A stretch of DNA of 64,000 nucleotides from Bacteroidaceae bacterium (GTDB lineage: Bacteria > Bacteroidota > Bacteroidia > Bacteroidales > Bacteroidaceae): positions 24,391-88,390 of the forward strand of contig JAFYQK010000022.1 in NCBI GenBank assembly GCA_017547165.1. The letters run 5' to 3'. Below the pieces are notes generated by a model, which saw only the letters and a list, made by a program, of their open reading frames with translations, made no database searches and was not told the origin of the DNA. Positions 8,271 to 64,000 of the stretch are shown one piece after another (the first letter of the stretch is position 1; each line of letters opens with the position of its first letter). The translations under genes and the position numbers were made by a program.

Positions 8271-9593
8271 ATGTTATCATTATCTGCTTTAGAAAGTTTT
8301 TTTAATATTACCACCGAGACTCCATCCGTTTGGGCCTGGATTGCCTTAGGAATGAGTGTCATATTGTTGTTGTGTAGTGGTTTGGCATCGGCTAGTGAGA
8401 TAGCTTTTTTCAGTCTCACACCTCAGCACTTAGCTGAAGTGAATGAGGAGCGCCGAAGTGCTGATTCATGTATTTTAGAGCTTCGCGAACGCGGCGATCG
8501 TCTCTTGGCTACTATATTGATAATGAATAATTTAGTAAATGTGGGAGTCATCATGCTGCTGAATTTCTTTTTCATGGATTGGTTGCATTTTGGAGAAGGT
8601 ACAGAGTGGGTCGAGTTTATTTTGCTAACAGTGCTGCTCACTTTCTTGTTGCTTCTTTTTGGAGAAATCATGCCAAAGATTTATAGTGCCCAGCATTCCT
8701 TGGCTTTTGCTCGTTTTGCTGCACCGATATTTTGTGTTATAGAGAAAGTGTTTTACCCGATATCATCTGTTTTGATGATGAGCAAGGCTTTCACCGACCG
8801 AATTGTCTCATACGAGACTGAATCTCTTACTGTTGACGACCTAGAGAAAGCAATGGAGCTTACCGACAAGCGTGAAATTGCGCAAGAGAGTCAGATGCTT
8901 CAGGGCATAATCAGATTTGGTGGAGAGATGGCAAGTGAGGTGATGACTCCCCGCGTGGATATTGTTGACCTTGATATAAAGACTCCCTTTCCGGAGGTAA
9001 TAAAGTGTATTGTGGAGAATAATTATAGCCGAATTCCTGTATACCAAGGTTCTACGGATAACATACAAGGTGTGTTGTATATCAAGGATCTGTTGCCTCA
9101 TCTACAAAAACCGGCAAACTTCAAATGGCAGAATCTTATCCGACCTCCTTATTTTGTGCCAGAAACAAAGATGATAGACGATCTTTTGCGTGATTTCCAG
9201 CAGAACAAGGTGCATATCGCCATTGTTGTTGACGAGTTTGGAGGTACTTCCGGCATTGTCACCATGGAGGATATCATTGAGGAGATTGTGGGAGAGATAG
9301 ATGATGAGTATGATGATGAGGAGAAAACATACCATCGTCTCAACCAAAATACCTATGTCTTCCAGGCTAAAACTCTGCTGACTGATTTTTATCGTATAAC
9401 TGGGTTGGATGATGAGTTCTTTGCTGATGTTGAGGGAGACGCAGACACTCTTGCAGGTCTCTTGCTTGAATTAAAAGGTGAATTCCCTGCATTGCACGAA
9501 CGCATAACCTACGGCAACCTCACATTTGAGGTTATGGAGATGGACGAACGACGTATAGTATCAATAAAAGTAATTAATAGTAAGAGCAAGTGA
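8271..9593 (+). CDS. gldE: CNNM/HlyC-CorC family protein, gliding-associated GldE type
   Basis: A membrane protein of about 440 residues. The ATG at 8271 ([19 protein letters not shown]) is preferred to the ORF's upstream start, which would add a short unconserved piece. The DUF21/CNNM domain has several membrane helices ([53 protein letters not shown]). A CBS pair follows ([12 protein letters not shown]...[22 protein letters not shown], then [29 protein letters not shown]), and a CorC_HlyC domain ends the protein. Related proteins move or sense Mg or Co. The ssb-gldE order is a Bacteroidetes signature; in non-gliding relatives the gliding name is historical only. Confidence 0.88.
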
Positions 9594-52365: not shown

Positions 52366-52560
52366 TTATAACTCGCATTTCACCACCCACTTGCCATTGC
52401 GCTTGCCATTCTCTCCATCGAGAAGTCCTTGCTCTACAAGTGCAGGAGTCATACGCCTGACCGTTCTTTCCGATTCTCCTATATGCTGGGCAATCTCCAT
52501 TTGTGTTGCACCAGGATTTCCTTCACAAAGCGAAAAAGAACCAGTTCATCAAGATTACAA
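52366..52560 (-). pseudogene. Remnant of a winged-helix DNA-binding domain (AlbA_2/ATP-binding regulator C-terminus)
   Basis: The minus strand between 52500 and 52366 translates as MEIAQHIGESERTVRRMTPA, then LVEQGLLDGENGKRNGKWVV and KCEL with a stop. GESERTVRR..ALVEQGLL...GKRNGKWVV is the winged helix found at the end of many AlbA_2 / DUF4325-like ATP-binding regulators. Upstream a second frame (LDELVLFRFVKE) carries on the homology with a shift of one base, and no full-length gene is present, so it appears as a frameshifted fragment. It lies just before mfd (17 bases). Confidence 0.5.
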
Positions 52561-52593
52561 TTCAAAGTGCATCCAAAGTGCACTATATTATTT

Positions 52594-52977
52594 TTATTCC
52601 TTAAGTAGTTTTATCACCTCCACATCAGCCGGCAACCATTCCACATCATCAAGAGTTTCTTTGCTGAGCCATTGGGCAGATTTATGTTCGCGCAAGTCAA
52701 TCTCCCCATTAGAGATGCGGCACATAAAGCAAAGCATCGAGAGGTGAAACTTAGGGTAGTCATACTCCACCGTGCAGAGCAGATTCTCCACCGCTATCTC
52801 CACACCCAGTTCCTCCATTATCTCGCGCCTCAGCGCCACCTCTGGGCCTTCCCCAGGCTCTATCTTTCCCCCAGGGAACTCCCACCATCCCTCATACTCG
52901 CCATACCCCCTCTGAGTAGCCAGGATACGCTTCTCCTCATCAAGGATTATAGCAGCTACGACGTTTATTGTTTTCAT
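52594..52977 (-). CDS. Nudix hydrolase, MutT-like
   Basis: A 127-residue Nudix enzyme. The Nudix box is complete: GKIEPGEGPEVALRREIMEE followed by LGV (GX5EX7REUXEEXGU). ILATQRGYGEYEGWWEFPGG is the typical MutT opening. MutT removes 8-oxo-dGTP and similar damaged nucleotides, but other Nudix enzymes share this pattern, so the substrate is only probable. It ends 33 bases before the winged-helix remnant, so the sequence between them has no other gene. Confidence 0.9.
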   Translation of the reverse strand: MKTINVVAAIILDEEKRILATQRGYGEYEGWWEFPGGKIEPGEGPEVALRREIMEELGVEIAVENLLCTVEYDYPKFHLSMLCFMCRISNGEIDLREHKSAQWLSKETLDDVEWLPADVEVIKLLKE

Positions 52978-52986
52978 AGGGTGTTA

Positions 52987-53154
52987 TTATTTGAGGCCTT
53001 TAATATTTTCGTTTTCTGGGATAATACTTGTTGGGGTGCTTGTTGGGGTACTTGTTGGGGTGCTTGTTGGGGTGCTTGTTGGGGTAGGGCCATCAAGTAA
53101 CTCTTTTGCCTTGATATGAAGATACCTGTTCATGAGAACATTTTCTTCGCCCAT
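52987..53154 (-). pseudogene. Fragment with a Pro-Thr-Ser-Thr repeat tail
   Basis: The frame from ATG 53154 reads MGEENVLMNRYLHIKAKELL, DG, then five TPTS units and IIPENENIKGLK, with two stop codons. Codons just upstream in the same frame also look protein-like (HLERFFRN), up to a stop near 53225, so the true gene was longer and has lost its beginning. The repeat is a flexible linker such as those in AlbA_2 regulators, and it may have belonged to the same lost gene as the winged-helix remnant, but that is inference. It lies after the Fic gene. Confidence 0.45.
53026..53085 (+). repeat. 12-base tandem repeat, five units
   Basis: ACTTGTTGGGGT and GCTTGTTGGGGT repeated head to tail five times. 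On the minus strand it codes Pro-Thr-Ser-Thr units. The first base of each unit alternates A/G. Confidence 0.9.
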
Positions 53155-53248
53155 CAAAAGGTTGCGGAAAAAGCGTTCAAGATGAATAGTTTTTTTTCAT
53201 ATAAATCCACATCATTTTAATGTTATCACATATTTTCATGGCTAATTT

Positions 53249-54124
53249 TTACTCTTCTTGCTCGTAGTAGTACGAGTAGTCGATTCCCTTCATAAAGGTT
53301 TCGCGGTCATTTATCTTGTCGGTCAATGCAGAAACCAAAAGTCTTTTGATATCCGATGGGTCAGCCACACTTTTTCGCATAGCGTTCAAATAGTCGTTCT
53401 TATCAATCTTACTCCAATCGACACACTTCTTCAATGAACGCCTGAACATCAAGTCCAACCATATGCGAGTGCTACGGCCATTACCCTCCATAAATGGATG
53501 AGCAACATTCATTTCAACATACTTGTCGGCAATCTCTTCGAAGGTGGTCTCTGGCATATTCTCAATTGTTGGTAAGATGGTTGAGAAGTGCAATGCATTA
53601 GCAAATGTAAATCCACCCTTACTGATGTTCTTCGTACGAATCTGTCCAGCAAACTCATACAATCCCCCAAACAGGTAGGCGTGAATCTGTTGCAAACACT
53701 TTATGCTGCCAGGTTCAAGCGACTTCAAGATACCACTTTCAAACAATTGGTATGCTTTCTTTTTGCTCTGCCCATCAATGGTGTTGTCGCTATAGGTAAA
53801 CCAATCGAGGAAAGCCAAAGCCTTATTATTCGGATAGTGCTTTGCTAATATATGAACACACTCGTTGTCGAGAGCATCGGCGGCACGTTTCTTTCCATCG
53901 GGAGCTTCGAACTTGAAGTCGTGAGTGACGCTCACGAGTTGGATACCGTCGGTAGTAAATTTCTTTTTAAGCCAACGCCAATAGTTACCAGCCTTTACAT
54001 AATCCGCCTCATCATTAATTGCACGAATTACATCAATAGCTGAGAACCACCATTTGGATTTCTCCTCATCCCAAATGGCTCTCACCTCGCGGTCGTTATA
54101 GAATCGGATGGATATCTTGGACAT
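53249..54124 (-). CDS. Bro-N-like / Fic-domain fusion protein
   Basis: A 291-residue protein. Residues 1-110 (FYNDREVRAIWDEEKSKWWF, SAIDVIRAINDEADYVKA, YWRWLKKKF) resemble the Bro-N DNA-binding domain. The Fic domain follows, with the full motif HPFMEGNGRSTR (His209 to Arg220). Such proteins attach AMP to a target. The C-terminus SYYYEQ (Ser284 to Glu288) fits the inhibitory helix S/T-x3-E-G/N with Gln at the last place, as in class III Fic proteins, which block their own activity until relieved. It is the last full gene of the defence operon and begins 4 bases after the TIR gene stop. Target unknown. Confidence 0.85.
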   Translation of the reverse strand: MSKISIRFYNDREVRAIWDEEKSKWWFSAIDVIRAINDEADYVKAGNYWRWLKKKFTTDGIQLVSVTHDFKFEAPDGKKRAADALDNECVHILAKHYPNNKALAFLDWFTYSDNTIDGQSKKKAYQLFESGILKSLEPGSIKCLQQIHAYLFGGLYEFAGQIRTKNISKGGFTFANALHFSTILPTIENMPETTFEEIADKYVEMNVAHPFMEGNGRSTRIWLDLMFRRSLKKCVDWSKIDKNDYLNAMRKSVADPSDIKRLLVSALTDKINDRETFMKGIDYSYYYEQEE

Positions 54125-54128
54125 ACAA

Positions 54129-54893
54129 CTATTTATTAATAAAAATCTCTCGCTGATAACTCCAGTTTATAAAATTGTCAGGTAGTGAATAATATTCATG
54201 CATTTCCTGATATAGTAAATCAAGAGCAACGGTATCCGTTATCTTATTAGCTTTTCGTGTGTCGCACAGCCATCCAATACTATTAAAATTGGTGTCGGGT
54301 AATAAATACAATCGAACATTGGAGTCATAAGCCCATACTGCTCCCATCTCATTCAAGCAAATTTCACTTGTTTTGTAATTGTCTGATATGAGCAAAAATG
54401 AATAGTCTGCACAACGAATATTATCTTGAATGTGTTTGCGAATATCTTCGCCATTTCTAATAGCAACATCTTCGATAGAAGTACAAAAAATATCATTGCG
54501 ATTAATACCAATGCCTAAGCACAATATGTGATCCATAAAATTGGAAACAATTTGTGCATCTTTTGAAGAGTGGCTTATGAATATTCGCTTACCATTAAGT
54601 GGTTGCTCAATTGCACATATGCAGTCAACAATTGCCGTAATGGCAGATATATGAATTATTGGGTCATTATCATATAAATCCATATTTTCTTTTAGACTTG
54701 TAGCAATTGAAGGGTATTTCCCTTTAATTGCACTATGAAAGTCTATGAGAAGTCTCTCTAAATGTTTAATATTACCTACTATATCATAATCGGTAAATAC
54801 AACTTGGTCACTATGTATTCTATTTCTTTTAAATGAAATATTTTGCTCTATATAGTCTTGGCACTCTTTGGCGATACTGTATATTGTTTTCAT
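54129..54893 (-). CDS. TIR-domain protein within the type I restriction operon
   Basis: A 254-residue protein starting at ATG 54893 (MKTIYSIAKECQDYIEQNIS), 16 bases after hsdM; an upstream in-frame ATG at 54941 would overlap hsdM. Residues 1-100 are helical with no recognised domain. Residues 102-254 are a TIR domain: KRIFISHSSKDAQIVSNFMD (strand A and first helix), DIFCTSIEDVAIRNGEDI, ADYSFLLISDNYKTSEICLN then EMGAVWA. The Glu182 of SEICLNE is at the place of the catalytic glutamate that hydrolyses NAD in bacterial TIR proteins. The sequence looks intact and AT-rich. A Thoeris-type SLOG partner is not present. Possible role: NAD depletion or signal-nucleotide synthesis when the restriction complex senses phage. 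Confidence 0.85.
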   Translation of the reverse strand: MKTIYSIAKECQDYIEQNISFKRNRIHSDQVVFTDYDIVGNIKHLERLLIDFHSAIKGKYPSIATSLKENMDLYDNDPIIHISAITAIVDCICAIEQPLNGKRIFISHSSKDAQIVSNFMDHILCLGIGINRNDIFCTSIEDVAIRNGEDIRKHIQDNIRCADYSFLLISDNYKTSEICLNEMGAVWAYDSNVRLYLLPDTNFNSIGWLCDTRKANKITDTVALDLLYQEMHEYYSLPDNFINWSYQREIFINK

Positions 54894-54909
54894 GCAATGA
54901 CTTGTAACT

Positions 54910-56544
54910 TTATAAAATTGGAGGTAATCCGAGTTCTGCAAGAAAAGAGTTGTGTTCCTCTCTCGCTTTAATAATTGCGAGTTCAGTTTCTTTCAGTTGG
55001 TTATGAATAGCATTCAAATCAACAGCTTCCTCATCTTTCGAAAGGTTAACATATCGAGTAATATTGAGATTGTAGCCATTCTCTTTAATTTCGCTCAATG
55101 AAACCTCACGAGCGTAACGGCTGATCGTTGCACGGCTCTTGTATGCCTCGAGAATCTTCTCTACATCTTCATCGCGCAGATAATTCTGGCGTTTGCCCTT
55201 CTCATAATGCTCCTCTGAACTTGCATTGATAAAGAGTATTTTATCATTTTTGCGACATTTCTTCAAAACAATGATACACACTGGGATACCTGTCGAGTAG
55301 AAGAGATTTGCCGGCAAACCGATAACGGCATCAATGTAATCCTTTTTGATTAACTCTTTTCGGATTACCTCCTCTTTGCCACCTCGGAACAATACACCGT
55401 GAGGTAGAATGATAGCCATAGTACCACTATCACTCAAGAAGTGTAAACCGTGAAGTAGGAAGGCAAAGTCCGCTGCTGATTTTGGCGCAACACCAAAACC
55501 ATTAAAGCGGAAATCTTTTGCAGTCTCTTCCTTCGGATCCCAGCGCAAGCTAAATGGGGGATTTGCGACAATGGCATCAAATGTCATCTTCTTCGCAGGA
55601 TTCTCCTCGCTCAATATGCTCCAATCGTTGACAAGGGTATCACCGTGATGTATCTCAAACTCGGTGTCCTTAACACCGTGAAGGAGCATATTCATTCGAG
55701 CCAAGTTGTATGTAGTGATATTCTTCTCCTGACCGTAAATCTTGCCAATACCATTGTTCCCCATCTCTTTGCGAACATTGAGCAACAGTGAACCCGAACC
55801 ACACGCAAAGTCAAGAACCTTGTCAATTTTACTCTTCTTACCACTTTGGGGTTCTTGGCAATCCAAAGTAACTATCTTTGATAAGATAGACGACACCATC
55901 TGTGGCGTGTAAAATTCTCCAGCTTTCTGTCCAGAACCTGCTGCAAATTGGCTGATAAGATATTCATAGGCATCTCCAAGGTCATCATGATCTGAAGATC
56001 GTGTCACAAGTCCATTGTCAATCGTCCTTATCACCTTACATAGCAAAGAATTGCGTTCTGTATAACTCTTGCCCAATTTTTCAGAGTTTAGATTGATCTC
56101 AGAAAACAATCCCTTTAATGAACACTCAAAAGAATCTTCTTCAATATGTTTGAATCCCTTTTCTATAAAAACCAATAACTCCTCATCATCTGTTTTGGCC
56201 ATCGCTACTATATTATCCCACAAATAATCAGGTTCGATAATATAGTGCACCTTTCGCCTCATCTGATCCTCAAACAGTTTTATATCTACCTTATTTTCTT
56301 CATACCATTCATGCAAGGAGGTCTTGTATCCTAATACGTACATTATATCAATAGGAGTATTTGGATAATCAGAACCTAGTTCCTTCTTAGCTGCTTTCAA
56401 ATAATTGTCTGATAGATATTTCCAAAAAAGGAATGAAAGCATATAATCGCGGAAGTCATCCGCCATCATTGCACCTCTCAACTCATTTGCAACAGCCCAA
56501 AGTGCTTTGCCTAATTTATTTTGATTATTATTGCTAGTTGCCAT
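54910..56544 (-). CDS. hsdM: Type I restriction-modification enzyme, M subunit
   Basis: A 544-residue N6-adenine methyltransferase. An N-terminal HsdM domain (LWAVANELRGAMMADDFRDY) is followed by AAGSGQKAGEFYTPQMV, SAM motif I DFACGSGSLLLNV (245-257), and the catalytic motif NPPF (328-331). The C-terminus is helical. Together with HsdS it methylates the recognition site and with HsdR forms the nuclease. The gap from prrC is 8 bases, and the gap to the TIR gene is 16. GC content by eye is close to the chromosome here, unlike prrC. Confidence 0.95.
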   Translation of the reverse strand: MATSNNNQNKLGKALWAVANELRGAMMADDFRDYMLSFLFWKYLSDNYLKAAKKELGSDYPNTPIDIMYVLGYKTSLHEWYEENKVDIKLFEDQMRRKVHYIIEPDYLWDNIVAMAKTDDEELLVFIEKGFKHIEEDSFECSLKGLFSEINLNSEKLGKSYTERNSLLCKVIRTIDNGLVTRSSDHDDLGDAYEYLISQFAAGSGQKAGEFYTPQMVSSILSKIVTLDCQEPQSGKKSKIDKVLDFACGSGSLLLNVRKEMGNNGIGKIYGQEKNITTYNLARMNMLLHGVKDTEFEIHHGDTLVNDWSILSEENPAKKMTFDAIVANPPFSLRWDPKEETAKDFRFNGFGVAPKSAADFAFLLHGLHFLSDSGTMAIILPHGVLFRGGKEEVIRKELIKKDYIDAVIGLPANLFYSTGIPVCIIVLKKCRKNDKILFINASSEEHYEKGKRQNYLRDEDVEKILEAYKSRATISRYAREVSLSEIKENGYNLNITRYVNLSKDEEAVDLNAIHNQLKETELAIIKAREEHNSFLAELGLPPIL

Positions 56545-56552
56545 ACAGATGA

Positions 56553-57743
56553 TTAATTATTCTTAAATACTTCAGGTAGTTCAAACTTATATTTTTCGAC
56601 AAATAAATCGAACAGTTTTACAAATAACTCTGCATTTTCACGCATTAAGCCCTTGGGGGCATAAATTGAATATTTGCCGTGACTCATAATATTAACAGCA
56701 CGAGCATACAAATCTTTATCTGCAAAGTCCTCAATACAATAAGCAAAATCATCTCTTCCGAAAAATATCGCAGTTTTCTCAAAAATAGCTCTCATCGTAT
56801 TGAAATGATGAGCCTTTAAAATATTTGATTGCAATATTCTTTCATCTAGATGCTCTGTTGACCTATACTTTTCCACACACTCTTTCAATCGACATAATTC
56901 GTCAATGTGATGGAAGAATGGTGTATCATCATTAGCCTGTAAACGAAATGTTTCACTTTGTGTCCTGTATAGTAAATATGTTTTGCTCTTAATGCTCCTT
57001 AATTCATTATATATAACATTGTAGAAAAGACTATGATGTGATGATATTACATACTTCTTCTTGTGTTTGCCATTATCATTAATATCCTTTTTTATTAAAC
57101 TAGCCAAATCTGTCGCAATTGTAATAGCATTATTTTCATCAAGCGAAGAGATTGGGTCATCAATATAGATATATTTGACCCATTTATATGCATCATGCCC
57201 TTCTATGACGAGTTCACATATTGCTAAAAATACTGAAAATATAAATATATTTTCTTCTCCTCTTGAAATTTTAATGTTTTCAACTTTAACCTTCTCAGGT
57301 TCAATATTGTTAGGGTTTTGGGGATTGTATTTAGGGTTGTTAATATTTCTACTAAATGAGACTACCCATTTATCATAATCGATAAAAAAGTCAAGTTCTG
57401 TATACCGTTCTAAATGGGAATGGATTCTATCTTCAAGCGATAATCCTCCGAATCCATTAAAGAACTTACTTTGTTCATTAATTTTTAGATATCTATCCTT
57501 GTCATGTTCTAAATCATTATTCCATGTAAAAAGGTCCTCTGTAAATGCATTGTAATATAAAGTATCAGGAGACTTCTTTTTCTTGCCTTTTTCCTTAAAC
57601 GCCATTGATAAGCGAGTTTTACCAGTCCTATTGAATGCATACAATAAAACTGCACATATGTCTTGCTGACTTAAATCATCATGCAGCCTGGCTGCAAGAG
57701 TGTTTAAATTCTGATACTTATATATTTTAGGCGAGACCTTCAT
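56553..57743 (-). CDS. prrC: PrrC-type anticodon nuclease
   Basis: A 396-residue protein, the same length as E. coli PrrC. NTPase part: Walker A AFNRTGKT (36-43, Ala for the first Gly), LYYNAFTEDLFTWNNDL (a PrrC hallmark), ABC signature ISRGEENIFIFS (159-170), Walker B YIYIDDPISSLD (191-202), His switch SSHHS. The RNase triad of PrrC (Arg320, Glu324, His356 in E. coli) is matched by Arg318 and Glu322 (RAIFE) and His355 (MSHGKY). PrrC is held silent by the type I enzyme and cleaves tRNA in the anticodon loop (tRNA-Lys in E. coli) after phage anti-restriction. It lies between hsdS and hsdM with 8-base gaps on each side. Strongly AT-rich, so it was probably acquired. Confidence 0.93.
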   Translation of the reverse strand: MKVSPKIYKYQNLNTLAARLHDDLSQQDICAVLLYAFNRTGKTRLSMAFKEKGKKKKSPDTLYYNAFTEDLFTWNNDLEHDKDRYLKINEQSKFFNGFGGLSLEDRIHSHLERYTELDFFIDYDKWVVSFSRNINNPKYNPQNPNNIEPEKVKVENIKISRGEENIFIFSVFLAICELVIEGHDAYKWVKYIYIDDPISSLDENNAITIATDLASLIKKDINDNGKHKKKYVISSHHSLFYNVIYNELRSIKSKTYLLYRTQSETFRLQANDDTPFFHHIDELCRLKECVEKYRSTEHLDERILQSNILKAHHFNTMRAIFEKTAIFFGRDDFAYCIEDFADKDLYARAVNIMSHGKYSIYAPKGLMRENAELFVKLFDLFVEKYKFELPEVFKNN

Positions 57744-57751
57744 ATGACATT

Positions 57752-59038
57752 TTATTTAAATCTAGGAAATAATTGCTGTTGTAAACCTTTTTTATGAGTT
57801 TCAAGAAGATCAATTTTGTCATTAATCTTCTTTATCTCACAATCTATACTCATTATGCATGACGCTATTCGTTTCTGTTCATCTAGTTTAGGAATCGCTA
57901 ATTTGATACGTGAAAAATTTTCATAAAAAAGATAACTTCTAATACCACCTTCAACATTACATTCAACGGCTTGATTAAAGATATGTGAGTTGAAGAAGCA
58001 CATTAAAAACGTATCATCAACGATATCAGTTGTCTTAAAGCATACATACAAAGAGCTTATTAAAATATCTTTCAGATCTCTACTATATCCGATAGACCCG
58101 ACATTGATTCGAGCGGGATTATAAGCAAATGTGTGTTTGCCGATAATCTTATATGCGGAAATGTCATAACCTCGGGCCTCGCTGTCCATTCCATCAAATT
58201 GTTGAGATTGAGGAATAAATCCATCAACATTATTAATCGAATAGACAGGAAGTGTGCGATTGCTTTTATTTCTTTTATTAATAACCTCTGTTACTTCTCC
58301 TAGAGATACGATATTCCAGTTTTCTCTATGCGAAAATTCAGGGAAGCGGAGCTCGGGGAGAGTTTTACCTTTAGCAGGGAATAATTTCTGCATTAAGCCC
58401 TTCTTATGCTCCTTTAATTGCCCAAGTTTACGCTTTGTCGCATCAATATATTTATCCAAAGCCAAGAAGCAATCTGCAATCTTTTTTTGTTCTCTCAAAG
58501 ATGGATATGGCATTGGCATATCCATAAAATCATCAGTTGCGATATTAATTCTATCGAATCGCGCACCATAGTTGGCTTTGGCTTTTAGATAATTATGCCA
58601 ATGTGTACTTTTGAAATAGTACTCATAAAAGTTAATATCGCCTTTATGGAATCCAAAAATTAAATAAAGGGGAGACATGATGCCTTTATCCAATTTATTC
58701 CTCGATATAGGTCCTACAGGGGCCGCGGTAGATACACGTGGATTATATACGAAATCATTATGTTCGATAATACTATAATTAACCAAATTATCTTTAGTTA
58801 CAATCTCTCTATCAAAATATTCTTCTTGATTAACGACACCTCCAATTGCAGAATTAGTGTATACTGGCAATTTTAGCCCTTGCCTATTTTTGGCCACTTT
58901 GCGTTTCGCTATATCCAACAGTTTGCACATTTTCCACTCCCCGTCATTTTGAAATTCGGGAAAGCGGAGCGCTGGAATATATTTTTTATTATCGTTTGCC
59001 ATTTTAATATCTCTGTTAGTAGAGTTATTTTTCTTCAT
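57752..59038 (-). CDS. hsdS: Type I restriction-modification enzyme, specificity subunit
   Basis: A 428-residue protein with two similar halves, each a target-recognition domain followed by a coiled spacer. Half 1 begins PALRFPEFQNDGEWKMCKLL, spacer SLREQKKIADCFLALDKYID and LKEHKKGLMQKLF. Half 2 begins PELRFPEFSHRENWNIVSLG, spacer LDEQKRIASCIMSIDCEIKK and LETHKKGLQQQLF. Each half recognises one part of a split DNA target. The frame from ATG 59038 overlaps hsdR by 14 bases; ATG 59002 (MANDNKKYIPALRF) has a better A-rich upstream and may be the real start. Only one hsdS copy and no recombinase is near. Confidence 0.93.
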   Translation of the reverse strand: MKKNNSTNRDIKMANDNKKYIPALRFPEFQNDGEWKMCKLLDIAKRKVAKNRQGLKLPVYTNSAIGGVVNQEEYFDREIVTKDNLVNYSIIEHNDFVYNPRVSTAAPVGPISRNKLDKGIMSPLYLIFGFHKGDINFYEYYFKSTHWHNYLKAKANYGARFDRINIATDDFMDMPMPYPSLREQKKIADCFLALDKYIDATKRKLGQLKEHKKGLMQKLFPAKGKTLPELRFPEFSHRENWNIVSLGEVTEVINKRNKSNRTLPVYSINNVDGFIPQSQQFDGMDSEARGYDISAYKIIGKHTFAYNPARINVGSIGYSRDLKDILISSLYVCFKTTDIVDDTFLMCFFNSHIFNQAVECNVEGGIRSYLFYENFSRIKLAIPKLDEQKRIASCIMSIDCEIKKINDKIDLLETHKKGLQQQLFPRFK

Positions 59039-62009
59039 ATGCAGAAAGGCCTGAAATCTTTTGACCTCCGACCATTCTCTTTAATAGAGGAATTAAGTCT
59101 GCCATTATCGCAGTCTCTTTCTTGGTGCGATCCTTCCAACCCAATTCTAATGGGGCCACAAGTTCGCTAAGTTTCTCTCCATCGAAAATCTTTCGATCTA
59201 CGATAGCGTGAACAAAATTTTGCAATGAAGTAACGCTCAAATTGTGATTATCTGCAATGGCAATAAGTTCATTTGCAAACTTCTCGGTTTTGAATACTTC
59301 ATAGCCAGCTTTAATCTCCTGCTCTGTTTTGCCATTTACACCGTCAAGGCTATCGATATACGCAATAATATTATCACGCTCATCAATAAGATTAGCACTT
59401 GAACTTACTAAACTAACAAGTTGCTCTTTTGTCATCTTCATCCTTGATGGAGCGCCTGCATATCGAGCAATAAGGTCCATTATGTAGTCATAGTCAATCA
59501 AAGCCGAAGCGAAAAGTACAAACTCAAAATCGAGATCTTGTATTTCATCAGAAACATCCTCATTCTTCTTGTTTTCTCGTCTTTTCTTTAGACTATAGGC
59601 CAAGTCTAAATACGCACCACGAAATGCAAGTAAATCTTCATCTGTGAATCCATATCCAACCTGTGGCTCTGATACGATTTGAGAATTAATACCATCTACA
59701 TTAACGAAGTCTGTATATTGACTTAATTGTGTTTTATATCTTTGTACCTCCTTAAAGTAGTTAATAAAACCTGCTTTGGCTTCATCACCACGGAGATTTG
59801 CAACCTCTGATGCCTTAAATTCGAGGTTGTGTATACTCATGAAGTTCCTTAAATCAGATATGGCTTTCTTGTACTTCTTGTTGATACTTTCTGCTGGCTC
59901 AACCAACCACACCTGACGTGCTGTATCTGTCTTTTCACCAGAGAAAAGAGCAATTGCAGCATCAACAGCATCTTGCTGTCCTCTAAAGTCAAGAATGTTA
60001 CCATACGGCTTAGTATCGTTCAGTATTCGATTAGTACGCGAGAAAGCCTGAATCAATCCGTGATGTTTTAGATTCTTATCGACATACAATGTATTAAGAT
60101 ACTTGGAGTCGAAACCTGTTAGCAACATATCTACCACGATTACTATGTCGAGCTTATTCTTATGTGGGTAATCCTTGTTGCTATACTTCTGATTCTTGAT
60201 ACGTTGCTGAACATCTTGATAATACACATCGAACTCTGACACAGTGTGATTTGTGCCATATTGTTCGTTGTATTTCTTGATAACATCCGCAAGGGCCTTC
60301 TTTTTTTTGTCGGGCTCTATCTCGTTATCCTTGCGCTCCTGTTCTAAATCCTCCTGAAGTTGGATAATATCTTTATTACCTTCGGCTGGCGGAGTGAAAA
60401 CACATGTAATATTTAACTGCTCTGCATCTGAACTTTGCTCTTTCTGAATTTGCTGAAGCAGGTGATAGTAATCAATGGCATCATTGATAGATGCTGTTGC
60501 AAATAGTGCATTGAATCGGCACTCGCCAGTGGCTGCCCTGTGCTTTTTTATTATCGCCTCAGCGATAGCTCGCTTTCGAGTAGATTCGTCAATTGTTACG
60601 CCATTCTCCTCTGGCTTGAAATAATCCACATGGAAACGCAACACATTGCGATCATCAATGGCGTTCGTAATGGTATATGCATGCAACTCTTTTTGGAAAA
60701 CATCTTCAGTCGTTTTATACTGAGCTTGTTCGCCTGTTACCTGCGTATATGTTGCGTTCTCTTCAAAAATAGGCGTACCCGTAAAACCAAACAGCTGTGC
60801 TTTAGGGAAGAATTCCTTTATGGCTTTGTGATTCTCTCCAAACTGTGATCGATGGCATTCATCGAATATAAATACAATACGCTTATCCTTTAATGGCAAC
60901 AAACGCTCCTGATAATTATTGCGGTTGTTGGGGTCTAATGCAATACCTAACTTTTGAATAGTTGTAACAATAATTTTGTCCGCATAATCATCAGACAACA
61001 TTCTTCTTACAAGATTTTCAGTGTTGGTATTCTCTTCTACACATCCGTCCTGGAACTTGTTGAATTCTTCTCGAGTTTGCTTATCAAGGTCCTTTCTGTC
61101 CACAACAAACATACACTTTTCAATATCAGGATTGTCTTTAAGAAGTGTGGATGTTTTGAACGAGGTCAAAGTCTTACCACTACCTGTAGTGTGCCATATA
61201 TAACCATTACCTCGATTTTCCTCGATGCAATTAATTATAGCATTCACTGCATATATCTGGTATGGGCGCATAATGAGCAACTTTTGTTCACTCGCCACCA
61301 AAACCATATATTGGCTAATCATTTTGCCGAGCTTACATTTTGCCAAAAAGACCTCCGAGAAATCATCAAGATTAGAGATTTTCTCATTTTTCTCATTAGC
61401 CCATTGGTATACTGGTAAAAACTGTTCATCAGCATTGAAATTAAAATGCTGGTTGTTGTTATTTGTGAAATAGTATGTCCTACTTTGGTTACTTACGACA
61501 AATAGCTGCATAAAACAAAGTAGGGAATTTGTGTAACCATTGCCTGGATCATTCTTGTAGTCCACAACCTGCTGCATAGCTCGACGAGGACTAACATCCA
61601 ATGTTTTCAGTTCTATTTGAACGATAGGAAGTCCGTTTATCAAAATAATAACATCATATCGCTGAAAGCTATTGCGAGTATTCATGCGAAGTTGATTGAC
61701 AACCTCGTATTCATTTTTGCACCACTCTTTGATATTAACCAGGGTATATTGAAGTGGTGTGCCATCCTCTCTGATAAATGTGTTACGCTCCCTTAAACGC
61801 TTTGATGAAACATACACATCTGAGTCTGTTATTTCTTCAAGTAATCGACTAAACTCAGAATCGGTAAGATGAACTCTATTAAGTTGTTCAAACTTCATAC
61901 GAAAGTTCTGCTCCAGAGTATTTCTGTCACAGATATCAGGACGATATGAATACTTCAAATCACATAATCTCTGGATGAAGTTATCTTCTATTTGTTTTTC
62001 TCTTATCAT
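59025..62009 (-). CDS. hsdR: Type I restriction-modification enzyme, R subunit
   Basis: A 994-residue endonuclease and translocase. PD-(D/E)xK nuclease: Asp119, IELK with Glu133 and Lys135, QxxxY at Gln147 to Tyr151. SF2 motor: Walker A TGSGKT (about 275-280), DECH at 383-386, FGFTGTPIFEENATY, and QAFSRTNRILNDTKPYGN. The C-terminal helical part binds HsdM. It cuts DNA far from unmethylated sites after translocation. It begins 3 bases after the XRE gene stop. Confidence 0.96.
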   Translation of the reverse strand: MIREKQIEDNFIQRLCDLKYSYRPDICDRNTLEQNFRMKFEQLNRVHLTDSEFSRLLEEITDSDVYVSSKRLRERNTFIREDGTPLQYTLVNIKEWCKNEYEVVNQLRMNTRNSFQRYDVIILINGLPIVQIELKTLDVSPRRAMQQVVDYKNDPGNGYTNSLLCFMQLFVVSNQSRTYYFTNNNNQHFNFNADEQFLPVYQWANEKNEKISNLDDFSEVFLAKCKLGKMISQYMVLVASEQKLLIMRPYQIYAVNAIINCIEENRGNGYIWHTTGSGKTLTSFKTSTLLKDNPDIEKCMFVVDRKDLDKQTREEFNKFQDGCVEENTNTENLVRRMLSDDYADKIIVTTIQKLGIALDPNNRNNYQERLLPLKDKRIVFIFDECHRSQFGENHKAIKEFFPKAQLFGFTGTPIFEENATYTQVTGEQAQYKTTEDVFQKELHAYTITNAIDDRNVLRFHVDYFKPEENGVTIDESTRKRAIAEAIIKKHRAATGECRFNALFATASINDAIDYYHLLQQIQKEQSSDAEQLNITCVFTPPAEGNKDIIQLQEDLEQERKDNEIEPDKKKKALADVIKKYNEQYGTNHTVSEFDVYYQDVQQRIKNQKYSNKDYPHKNKLDIVIVVDMLLTGFDSKYLNTLYVDKNLKHHGLIQAFSRTNRILNDTKPYGNILDFRGQQDAVDAAIALFSGEKTDTARQVWLVEPAESINKKYKKAISDLRNFMSIHNLEFKASEVANLRGDEAKAGFINYFKEVQRYKTQLSQYTDFVNVDGINSQIVSEPQVGYGFTDEDLLAFRGAYLDLAYSLKKRRENKKNEDVSDEIQDLDFEFVLFASALIDYDYIMDLIARYAGAPSRMKMTKEQLVSLVSSSANLIDERDNIIAYIDSLDGVNGKTEQEIKAGYEVFKTEKFANELIAIADNHNLSVTSLQNFVHAIVDRKIFDGEKLSELVAPLELGWKDRTKKETAIMADLIPLLKRMVGGQKISGLSAYEEK

Positions 62010-62012
62010 ATC

Positions 62013-62210
62013 TTAGTGTGAAGTTTGATTGCTGATTAACTCTTTCGGATCCACATTCAATATCTTTGCTATCTCGAAGAGGACTTCGAGGCTGGGTTGG
62101 CGTCTATTGCAAACATATGAATTCACTATGCAGAAGCTTTTGCCAAGCCTCTCTGCAAGCCAGGTTTGTTTTATTCCTCTCTCTTCAAGGACCTCTTTTA
62201 TTCTGTTCAT
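62013..62210 (-). CDS. XRE-type helix-turn-helix regulator
   Basis: A 65-residue DNA-binding protein: IKEVLEERGIKQTWLAERLG and NRRQPSLEVLFEIAKILNVD are the usual Cro/C1-type HTH. The second HTH helix region KSFCIVNSYVCNRRQPS is seen. Small XRE proteins before restriction genes often time their expression (C proteins). It begins 15 bases after the 238-aa gene and touches hsdR, so it is part of the operon. Confidence 0.85.
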   Translation of the reverse strand: MNRIKEVLEERGIKQTWLAERLGKSFCIVNSYVCNRRQPSLEVLFEIAKILNVDPKELISNQTSH

Positions 62211-62225
62211 ATTTATGCTGATGAA

Positions 62226-62942
62226 TTATTTTTTACAAAAGAAATCAATCGCCAAATCAATCATAATTGCAGTTATAGAAACTCCTCGCTTAGCCTCATC
62301 ATCCTTAATAGAAGATTTCACGACTGATGATATAAAGCTAGTAGCTAAGTGTAACATTTTGTTGACTGGCTTATCTTCGGGTTTATTGTTGAGTATTGCA
62401 TCAATGCCTTGAAAAACCGTAATTGCAGCATTCGCCTTTGCATACTCCTCGTTGCTAGGCTCTATGGCCTCAGCAATACTTACAGCATACTTAGATACAG
62501 CAAGAAGATCCGCAACCTTTAACTGGTGACCTTGGGCGTTCTGATATAGTACTTCTTCTTGCTGAAAAGTATGAGTCGGTCTATACAAAACGCTTTGGGC
62601 ATATGTGTATTGGGTAGAATATATATTGCGTCTACCAAGCTCAAATTGTAGAGCTTTTAGGCAGCCTTGAATATTCATTCGTAACAATGTGTCATCTTTA
62701 ATGTCATATATAGATGTTGGTAGTACATTGGGGATGACTCCGTTATCAAGCATTGTTTGCTTAGTATTTAGATAGATGCTATCTGTTAAATATGGGATAT
62801 TCACATTCCCTACGGCAACATACTTGGCAATCATATCCTCTCTATTGCCAGATACATATGCCAGATATAGATTAGAATATGCTATTTCTAATCTCAAAAA
62901 CTCCTCGTTTTTTTGCTGTATATACGTATCAATAGTCATCAT
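62226..62942 (-). CDS. Unknown protein, first gene of the restriction operon
   Basis: A 238-residue protein not recognised. Residues 1-40 (MMTIDTYIQQKNEEFLRLEI, AYSNLYLAYVSG) look helical; the middle is mixed (YLTDSIYLNTKQTMLDNGVI); the end is a long helical region (LADLLAVSKYAVSIAEAIEP-like VADLLAVSKYAVSIAEA, AAITVFQGIDAILN, VSITAIMIDLAIDFF). No catalytic motif or signal peptide. Two ATG codons at 62942 and 62939 are both possible starts. As the promoter-proximal gene of a defence operon it may be a sensor, antitoxin or inhibitor. That is inference. Confidence 0.7.
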   Translation of the reverse strand: MMTIDTYIQQKNEEFLRLEIAYSNLYLAYVSGNREDMIAKYVAVGNVNIPYLTDSIYLNTKQTMLDNGVIPNVLPTSIYDIKDDTLLRMNIQGCLKALQFELGRRNIYSTQYTYAQSVLYRPTHTFQQEEVLYQNAQGHQLKVADLLAVSKYAVSIAEAIEPSNEEYAKANAAITVFQGIDAILNNKPEDKPVNKMLHLATSFISSVVKSSIKDDEAKRGVSITAIMIDLAIDFFCKK

Positions 62943-62969: not shown

Positions 62970-62977
62970 CAAAGTTA
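62970..62977 (-). promoter_or_regulatory. Bacteroidetes -7 box of the restriction operon
   Basis: On the minus strand TAACTTTG, 28 bases before ATG 62942. The -33 TTTG is not well matched, so the promoter may be weak or regulated (for example by the XRE protein). Confidence 0.5.
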
Positions 62978-63333
62978 TAAAATATTATGCAATATAAAAA
63001 GAAAATAGGTTGGAATAATACTGCTTTGAGTGTAATTGTTTTCAATATGCCTTATAATTCGTCAGTAGGGGAGTTTAATTTGAATTTTAAAAGATAATAG
63101 TAGATAAAAGAAGGGAACTTAAAACATTCCGTGCCATCAACAATTACCTACTAACATAATTATCTTTCAATAATACTCCACAGTTGCAATTCAACTATAA
63201 TAAACCTTGTTTGATATAGGGTGAGATGGTGGATATACCCCTTAAGGAATAGCACAGTTTCCTAAAATGTTTTGTTACGTTTAACAAAAGTGTTAGGACA
63301 AGCAAATAAACAGTTGAAATGCTTATTCATAAA

Positions 63334-63379
63334 AATGTACTAAACGTTAAGGACAATTGTCCCCAATATTTAGTACATT
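63334..63379. repeat. Nested inverted repeats before the HU-like gene
   Basis: AATGTACTAAA (63334-63344) pairs perfectly with TTTAGTACATT (63369-63379); within the loop GGACAATTGTCC (63351-63362) is a perfect palindrome. The sequence TGTCCCCAATATT occurs at 63358-63370 and again at 63402-63414. Confidence 0.75.
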
Positions 63380-63440
63380 GCTCCGCAACATTTAGTAGAA
63401 ATGTCCCCAATATTGAGGATATAATTTAAATGCTGTTTTT

Positions 63441-63515: not shown

Positions 63516-64000
63516 ATGGCAAAATACATCAAACAGGAGTTGCCTGATTTGCACAAGACAGGCGAGAAGAAGGCTTATTATCGTTTGAAAACAGAACGGA
63601 AAATAGACTTTAATCAATTTATAGACCGAATCAGCAGTCATAATTCGGGTATCAGTAAAGGAGAGGCTATTCATGTTCTCATGCACGCTACCGATATTTT
63701 GGCCGAACTCCTTGCAGATGGCTATGCTGTAACGATTGATGATATGGGTACTTTCAAAGCCACTATCGGTTTAGTTGAGGACAAGGATATGGATTCTTTT
63801 GAGGAAGGTACTCCCAAACTGAATGCACGCAGCCTAAGGATAGATGGTGTGAACTTTCTGGCGGACAAGAAACTGATTGCCAATGTGGACCGGCGTTGCG
63901 ACCTGAAACGTGCTGGAGTAAGTCGTCTTTGCCGTTCTCCGTTTACCAAGGAACAGCGTCTGCAGAAGGCCTTGGAATATCTGCAATCTCATGGGGCAAT
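63516..64000 (+). CDS. HU-like DNA-binding protein (HU-HIG type), cut by the window end
   Basis: The frame from ATG 63516 is open to the end of the window (161 codons). It reads MAKYIKQELPDLHKTGEKKA, YYRLKTERKIDFNQFIDRIS, SGISKGEAIHVLMHATDILA, VTIDDMGTFKATIGLVED. This is the pattern of Bacteroidetes HU-related proteins (HU-HIG / viral histone-like family): a long helical dimer core with beta arms that contact DNA. After residue 130 an Arg-rich part (VSRLCRSPFTKEQRLQKALE) may be a second DNA-binding region. It is the first gene after the island on the right. Confidence 0.8.
   Translation, partial: MAKYIKQELPDLHKTGEKKAYYRLKTERKIDFNQFIDRISSHNSGISKGEAIHVLMHATDILAELLADGYAVTIDDMGTFKATIGLVEDKDMDSFEEGTPKLNARSLRIDGVNFLADKKLIANVDRRCDLKRAGVSRLCRSPFTKEQRLQKALEYLQSHGA

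Follow-up and report, generated by a model that had tools for sequence, protein, structure and literature searches.

A type I restriction-modification operon with PrrC-like, TIR and Fic genes behind a recurrent XRE-type header in a Bacteroidaceae bacterium

Introduction

A layered defense combining restriction-modification (R-M) enzymes, HEPN nucleases of the PrrC or RloC type and Doc or RhuM toxins was proposed in 2013 (Anantharaman et al., PMC3710099), and a table row in that source gives a TIR fusion in a HEPN family occurring with R-M. Here we compare with this and other described systems an operon of eight genes at positions 62942 to 53249, on the minus strand, of a 64,000-nucleotide stretch of DNA from a Bacteroidaceae bacterium (hereafter the window; GenBank assembly GCA_017547165.1, contig JAFYQK010000022.1, positions 24,391 to 88,390). 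It joins a type I R-M enzyme to PrrC-like, TIR and Fic proteins.

Parts of such an arrangement have precedents. PrrC and PARIS are treated as guards of R-M systems in a review (PMC12707154). In a type I R-M island with an embedded DarTG2 module, the gene of the 9-kDa repressor RptR comes first (PMC12255303). SpbK, the TIR NADase of ICEBs1, is activated by the phage portal protein YonE, and its residue E192 is needed for both NAD+ loss and defense (PMC11984713).

We favor, at a probability of about 0.5, the reading that the window holds a modular immune operon, in which a header drives an exchangeable core to which TIR and Fic genes are added. The genes, their motifs and order, the recurrence of parts with other cores and the shared header were all observed directly, and the sections below set them out.

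Results

The eight open genes lie head to tail with a spacing of at most 16 nucleotides (nt), the consecutive gaps from 5' to 3' being 15, 3, -14 (an overlap), 8, 8, 16 and 4 nt, and the G+C content, 0.51 ahead of the operon, is lowered to 0.32-0.39 within it. Coordinates, open frames and profile matches agree with the minus-strand order and the gene families given in the initial annotation, and the catalytic motifs, which had appeared intact there, are found here to be present (those of HsdR and HsdM, R-E-H of PrrC, E182 of the TIR protein and HPFMEGNGR of Fic). The packing exceeds chance, and parts of the operon recur in the same order elsewhere. For these comparisons we used a sample of 301 genomes of the same family and loci fetched and mapped with a greedy open reading frame caller made for this analysis; W denotes the window locus and L numbers the others.

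The shared header of a promoter and a regulator, to which the initial annotation had not drawn attention, is the most general feature found. The regulator, XRE65 (62013..62210, minus strand), is a Cro/C1-type protein of 65 amino acids (aa; HTH_3, 8e-10), and its relatives at 79% or more occupy 21 places in the 301 genomes, of which 20 are readable, since G254 ends just after the gene; the XRE set as a whole held all 21 places plus lower-identity ones in L237-L246. Behind all 20 readable places lie R-M, Hma, Fic, NACHT-like or candidate defense genes, a count for which no unrelated XRE family serves as a comparison. R-M or DNA-methyltransferase genes are found in 15 of them (W, L027, L174, L179, L189, L191, L206, L208, L226, L227, L228, L230, L232, L233 and L236, with L233 counted as Hma by its cluster with L237). 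Other cargo consists of Fic with a KAP or Ymh gene after it (L180, L190), PDC-M11A (L231), or an operon opening with a gene that gives AAA/NACHT-type matches (3.5e-7 and 3.6e-6; L234, L235) and no PADLOC match at 1e-10. TIR is present in two of the 20 places (W, L027). Header DNA is at least 90% identical among loci with different cargo, for example, among L060, L072 and L206 and among L179, L180 and L235, and an XRE relative at 61% heads a type I operon.

The promoter-like block, GCATAATATTTTATAACTTTG (62970..62990, minus strand), stands before XRE65 in most of the 33 loci displayed, as judged by eye. It has one match in the window, against 0 expected, and one exact match plus four with three mismatches in the window's genome; promoter-like sites at large number 42, no more than chance would give (mean 41.4). 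In W and L067 the block precedes ORF238 (238 aa; 62226..62942, minus strand, in the window), which thus separates promoter and XRE65. ORF238 has matches in 9 of the 301 genomes, and a relative in L267 has an XRE gene on one side and an N6 methyltransferase gene on the other.

XRE65 relatives also occur in viral contigs (11 loci, 7 of them mapped), some with R-M genes and some in phage-like backgrounds without them. One such contig from IMG/VR (L294) has XRE65 at 84%, then a C5 methyltransferase and the start of a GHKL-like gene, as in L067; a neighboring gene is lysozyme-like by eye, and header and core may here be travelling on a phage. Fic-like proteins of other types were seen in the XRE65-headed operons L228, L230, L231, L232 and L239 (with type I genes in L228, L230 and L232), by assignments taken from clusters, with Pfam shown for the L228 protein only; more than one Fic subfamily may thus serve the same function in such operons.

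Ten of the 20 readable places contain window-type Fic, which in five (L180, L189, L190, L191 and L226) directly follows XRE65. XRE65 and Fic could on these grounds form a toxin-antitoxin-like pair, into which R-M genes were inserted and which mainly keeps the cassette from being lost. We regard this as improbable: XRE65 also heads operons without window-type Fic (L227, L231, L233-L236), and a class III Fic has an inhibitory segment of its own (S284YYYE288), hence no need of an antitoxin.

The TIR gene (54129..54893, minus strand) encodes 254 aa, with an N-terminal domain at about residues 1-100 followed by the TIR part; the frame as listed opens at TTG 54941, inside hsdM, and the 254 aa are counted from an ATG. 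The protein matches Pfam TIR_2 (1.1e-7) and, with its TIR part only, PADLOC spbK (2.8e-28). E182, in a NEMGA block aligned with SpbK, is invariant in 36 sequences, most of which were found by a pattern holding E182 and are hence biased in its favor.

For the neighborhood of this family we compiled 86 loci: the window, 5 further loci and 80 kept of 114 relatives. L015-L020 and L023, judged to be the same contigs as L027, L037, L039, L043, L047, L048 and L085, and the weak match G061 were excluded; near-copies such as L027 and L028 were retained. An R-M gene lies within five genes of TIR in 37 of the 86 loci, and the R-M types are unrelated (the count was made without the L026 seed, which matched specificity subunits too). 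Time and again, members of the family directly follow R-M genes, the preceding gene encoding a methyltransferase or specificity subunit of one of many types. All 40 methyltransferase genes detected lie within five genes of TIR and on its strand (19.0 expected), and 38 of the 40 are upstream of it (10.2 expected; none of 200,000 simulations as high), with the limit that the methyltransferase seeds were partly taken from genes beside TIR, which favors detection there. That TIR is a recurrent add-on downstream of unrelated R-M types is new here.

The window's genome itself has, in the stretch 9502-11767 of L021, a second TIR gene, of 473 aa, behind methyltransferase and specificity genes in an operon that also carries an XRE gene at 53% and, after TIR, a gene of the GIY-YIG/DUF4357 type, which is present in 10 of the 86 TIR operons. 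Relatives of TIR were found in 19 plasmid records, 3 phages and 9 viral-contig loci (3 mapped). On the TIR tree, the R-M label has to change no fewer than 20 times, 9 of these changes being forced by starred branches (85 of the 86 loci), which argues that the R-M link was gained or lost repeatedly; the label is nonetheless more clustered than shuffled labels are (20 changes, against a mean of 27.6).

Window-type Fic stands directly after TIR in W, in L060 and L069 (both Alistipes) and in L067 (Rikenellaceae). Between W and L060 the TIR proteins are 85% identical and the TIR-Fic junction is nearly identical, with 4 nt between the genes, yet what lies upstream is unrelated: hsdM in W, and in L060 two C5 methyltransferases with genes of 322 and 496 aa that have no clear Pfam match. 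No relatives of HsdM, HsdS or HsdR were found upstream of the pair in L060 and L067. That Alistipes has such a TIR-Fic pair, its junction almost unchanged, following a core of the C5-methyltransferase kind is likewise new here. A search for hsdM-TIR or TIR-Fic adjacency, proposed with the initial annotation, found in unrelated genomes both TIR next to R-M and R-M followed by TIR and then Fic.

These data bear on the view that failure of the type I enzyme gates all three extra effectors, with inhibition of HsdRMS releasing PrrC, TIR and Fic in turn. In its favor are the precedent of PrrC (PMC3710099, PMC12707154), the position of TIR immediately after a methyltransferase or specificity gene in many kinds of R-M system, and the location of all genes on one strand, never more than 16 nt apart. 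However, TIR-Fic also occurs with upstream cores that yielded no relative of HsdM, HsdS or HsdR, which makes a specific contact with HsdM or HsdS unlikely, and R-M neighbors are often missing around TIR and Fic. We find this view doubtful.

A strict TIR-Fic unit was rejected, as nucleotide identity between W and L060 is lost partway through Bro-N and the nearest relatives of the Bro-N part are not those of the Fic part. Fic of another type follows TIR directly in L037, five genes on in L027 and L029 and eight genes on in L028; L073 has a 157-aa Fic piece, with no Pfam match, two genes downstream of TIR. A count of Fic in 16 of the 86 TIR loci was left unused, given that its L029 Fic seed matched Schlafen/AlbA_2 proteins, such as one in L072 that shares the Fic-like_C domain.

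The Fic protein itself (291 aa; 53249..54124, minus strand) matches Pfam PF02661 (3.7e-12), the NCBIfam NmFic model (266 bits, cutoff 230) and, over its full length, PADLOC PDC-S04 (6e-162; residues 2-291 on 3-292 of 292). Its Bro-N part (residues 13-110) does not reach the threshold in the window's own protein (E of 0.053), and Bro-N is found at an E of 0.1 or less in all ten members of the Fic alignment, the window's included (best 1.1e-6). The H, P, F, G, N, G and R of the HPFMEGNGR motif are invariant in the ten sequences. So is S284YYYE288, which aligns with a C-terminal segment of NmFic that we take to be the inhibitory segment; the residue after the inhibitory E is usually G or N and in the window is Q289.

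Window-type Fic is matched in at least 151 of the 301 genomes, with many matches partial. We read 61 places, the window and 60 others among the matches listed, and within this set an R-M gene lies within five genes of Fic in 24, the downstream context being short; methyltransferases occur only at ranks -5 to +1. A copy on a Treponema plasmid (73%) sits after hsdS in a type I operon, and with these neighbors a Fic gene beside R-M is ordinary. Bro-N is 90% identical to the window's where the Fic part is 69% identical (L176) and 66% where it is 87% (L172), which indicates that Bro-N has been shuffled among Fic proteins.

Just downstream of the operon, decayed Fic pieces of the other type, from one or two genes, lie at 53000-53196 and 52369-52570 (minus strand), flanking a NUDIX-like gene (52594-52977). 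They comprise a linker of TPTS repeats, encoded by a 12-nt tandem repeat of 4.9 copies (53027-53085) and found in the intact L029 Fic too, and a C-terminal part.

The core consists of hsdR (994 aa; 59025..62009), an EcoR124-class restriction and translocation subunit (TIGR00348, EcoR124_C); hsdS (428 aa; 57752..59038), the specificity subunit, with Methylase_S in two stretches; the prrC-like anticodon nuclease gene (396 aa; 56553..57743); and hsdM (544 aa; 54910..56544), the N6-adenine methyltransferase subunit (TIGR00497, 388 bits), all on the minus strand. By eye, HsdR has GSGKT, DECH and D..ELK and HsdM has NPPF. The PrrC-like protein combines an ABC ATPase with a HEPN-type C terminus (PADLOC PrrC, 7e-114; Pfam AAA_13, 1.8e-9), and its Walker A motif and R318, E322 and H355, presumably R320, E324 and H356 of E. 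coli PrrC, do not vary among seven sequences, some of them plasmid copies from E. coli, Enterobacter and Parabacteroides. The hsdRS-PrrC-M core is a known kind of arrangement: an E. coli IncC plasmid has hsdS, an anticodon nuclease gene and hsdM, preceded by a large gene that carries no name and by a "transcriptional regulator," and a Parabacteroides plasmid has the order R-S-AAA-M. The mloA/rloC loci of Campylobacter were reportedly described by Miller in 2005.

HsdM relatives at an E of 1e-100 or less are present in 20 of the 301 genomes; besides the window's, four are 63-73% identical and all others 49% or less. Three of the four (L227, L248 and L249) have a PrrC-like gene (29-35% identity) between hsdS and hsdM, and the fourth (L247) has genes of 285 and 68 aa there. 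In L227, the closest relative with XRE, R, S, PrrC and M, a 58-aa stretch resembling the other Fic type (8990-9163) lies directly behind hsdM.

The absence of TIR and window-type Fic from all four close HsdM relatives, in the stretches fetched, is what would be expected if stand-alone TIR and Fic genes had merely hitchhiked in a defense island, landing behind hsdM and sharing its promoter but not its function. Other-type Fic pieces beside the operon and behind hsdM in L227, which imply that the site gains and loses such genes, and the scatter of the R-M label over the TIR tree point the same way. The 38 of 40 methyltransferase genes upstream of TIR and the conservation of the TIR-Fic junction across different cores, however, go beyond random clustering, and we consider plain hitchhiking unlikely.

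On the other side of the operon, between it and a gene at 63516, lies a 22-nt repeat of 2.7 copies (63356-63414; consensus ATTGTCCCCAACATTTAGTAC).

Discussion

Our data are consistent with a modular immune operon whose workings, that is, its enzyme activities, triggers, coupling and autorepression by XRE65, we infer from gene content and from relatives. The header, a promoter with XRE65 as a probable autorepressor, would drive a core that can be exchanged; in the window this is a type I R-M enzyme of the EcoR124 class, in whose operon PrrC is embedded as a guard. Behind the core, TIR and Fic would be two added shut-down enzymes. Restriction would be the first line. PrrC would most likely be held by the HsdRMS complex and cut tRNA upon inhibition of that complex, as in E. 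coli PrrI. The TIR protein most likely destroys NAD+ after some sign of infection has set off its N-terminal domain, in the manner of SpbK, and Fic most likely AMPylates GyrB/ParE, the target reported for NmFic, once its autoinhibition is lifted, with Bro-N providing targeting.

Direct coupling to the R-M complex need not be the same for each effector. For PrrC it is probable by analogy; for TIR we lean slightly against it, and for Fic a little further. Since the TIR-Fic pair is also found behind unrelated cores, TIR and Fic are less likely to touch HsdM or HsdS directly, and sensors of their own, the TIR N-terminal domain and Bro-N, fit better. In the initial annotation, all three effectors had been read as back-up layers sensing failure of the enzyme. 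The type I enzyme, the embedded PrrC in its known guard arrangement, the predicted NADase-type TIR, the AMPylating-type Fic and the operon-like packing support this reading in part, but TIR and Fic need not sense that failure.

Several observations weigh against a modular operon. No R-M gene lies within five genes in 49 of the 86 TIR loci (upstream of TIR, 18 of the 86 offer fewer than five genes) or in 37 of the 61 Fic loci, several of them at contig ends, and the window's TIR family is present in none of the 60 other Fic loci read, both Fic counts being among the matches listed. The full eight-gene set was found only in the window, and the conservation of gene order, which had been suggested as a check, did not extend to the full set: the four closest HsdM relatives (63-73%, 301 genomes) have neither TIR nor window-type Fic in the stretches fetched. 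The enrichment of methyltransferases beside TIR and the consistent presence of defense-type cargo behind XRE65 have to be read with the choice of seeds and the missing comparison family given above. The W header is not 90% or more identical in DNA to any other compared, as ORF238 lies between its promoter and XRE65, and ORF238 has no match in three profile libraries. At a greater distance, an XRE relative at 60% on a Segatella copri plasmid is followed only by hypothetical proteins and transposases, with no named defense gene.

A bolder version of the modular reading, which we put forward as speculative, is a standard immune chassis of the Bacteroidales: a promoter and XRE65 header and a 3' slot for TIR-Fic, between which cores (type I, II and IIG R-M, Hma, NACHT-like) are swapped, with TIR and Fic backing up whichever core is installed. 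If header and effector slot are real, gut Bacteroidota would exchange immune cores under a fixed switch, which could explain the uptake of new restriction systems without immediate harm. The header would then be a simple handle for finding unknown defense genes, and whether TIR and Fic are generic second lines or guards of one enzyme would become testable.

No named system with this gene set had been known to the initial annotation. The exact set was indeed seen only here, but the layered idea of R-M, PrrC, RloC, Doc and RhuM was published in 2013 (PMC3710099), and the Fic protein corresponds to the PADLOC candidate system PDC-S04. The neighborhoods in that source share the logic and most gene classes of the window's operon, with Doc linked to RloC-like and RhuM to PrrC-like proteins; its section on multi-level defense has no TIR level and, unlike the window, no constant header. 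In titles and the beginnings of abstracts, among open PMC text only and hence as no proof of absence, we found no description of TIR with hsd genes or of the XRE65 header. Thoeris was rejected, with weak ThsB matches (best 5.1e-6) and no ThsA model among the matches shown for the eight proteins, as was a conserved eight-gene system, in view of close HsdM relatives without TIR and window-type Fic.

For its core, the closest described system is EcoprrI/PrrC of E. coli (type IC), with which the window shares EcoR124-class HsdR, HsdM and HsdS and, inside the hsd operon, a PrrC with ABC-ATPase motifs and the anticodon nuclease residues R-E-H; the window differs in its order, R-S-PrrC-M, and in the additional XRE header, ORF238, TIR and Fic. 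NmFic and the window's Fic have the catalytic HPFxEGNGR and C-terminal SxxxE segments in common, which places the latter with class III, but NmFic chains align only from residue 114, that is, without Bro-N, so that the window protein is not of the single-domain kind. Like SpbK (267 aa), the TIR protein (254 aa) has an N-terminal domain and a C-terminal TIR with the NEMGA glutamate; its N-terminal domain has no sequence match to SpbK (only residues 101-244 align), and it sits in an R-M operon.

Finally, RptR islands resemble the window in having a small regulator as the first gene and a type I R-M system with an embedded shut-down module. RptR also heads modules other than R-M and is described as occurring mainly in Gammaproteobacteria (PMC12255303), whereas the cores behind XRE65 are more varied (Hma, NACHT-like, IIG and type II). 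By this analogy, drawn from gene order alone, RptR appears to be the best precedent for XRE65.

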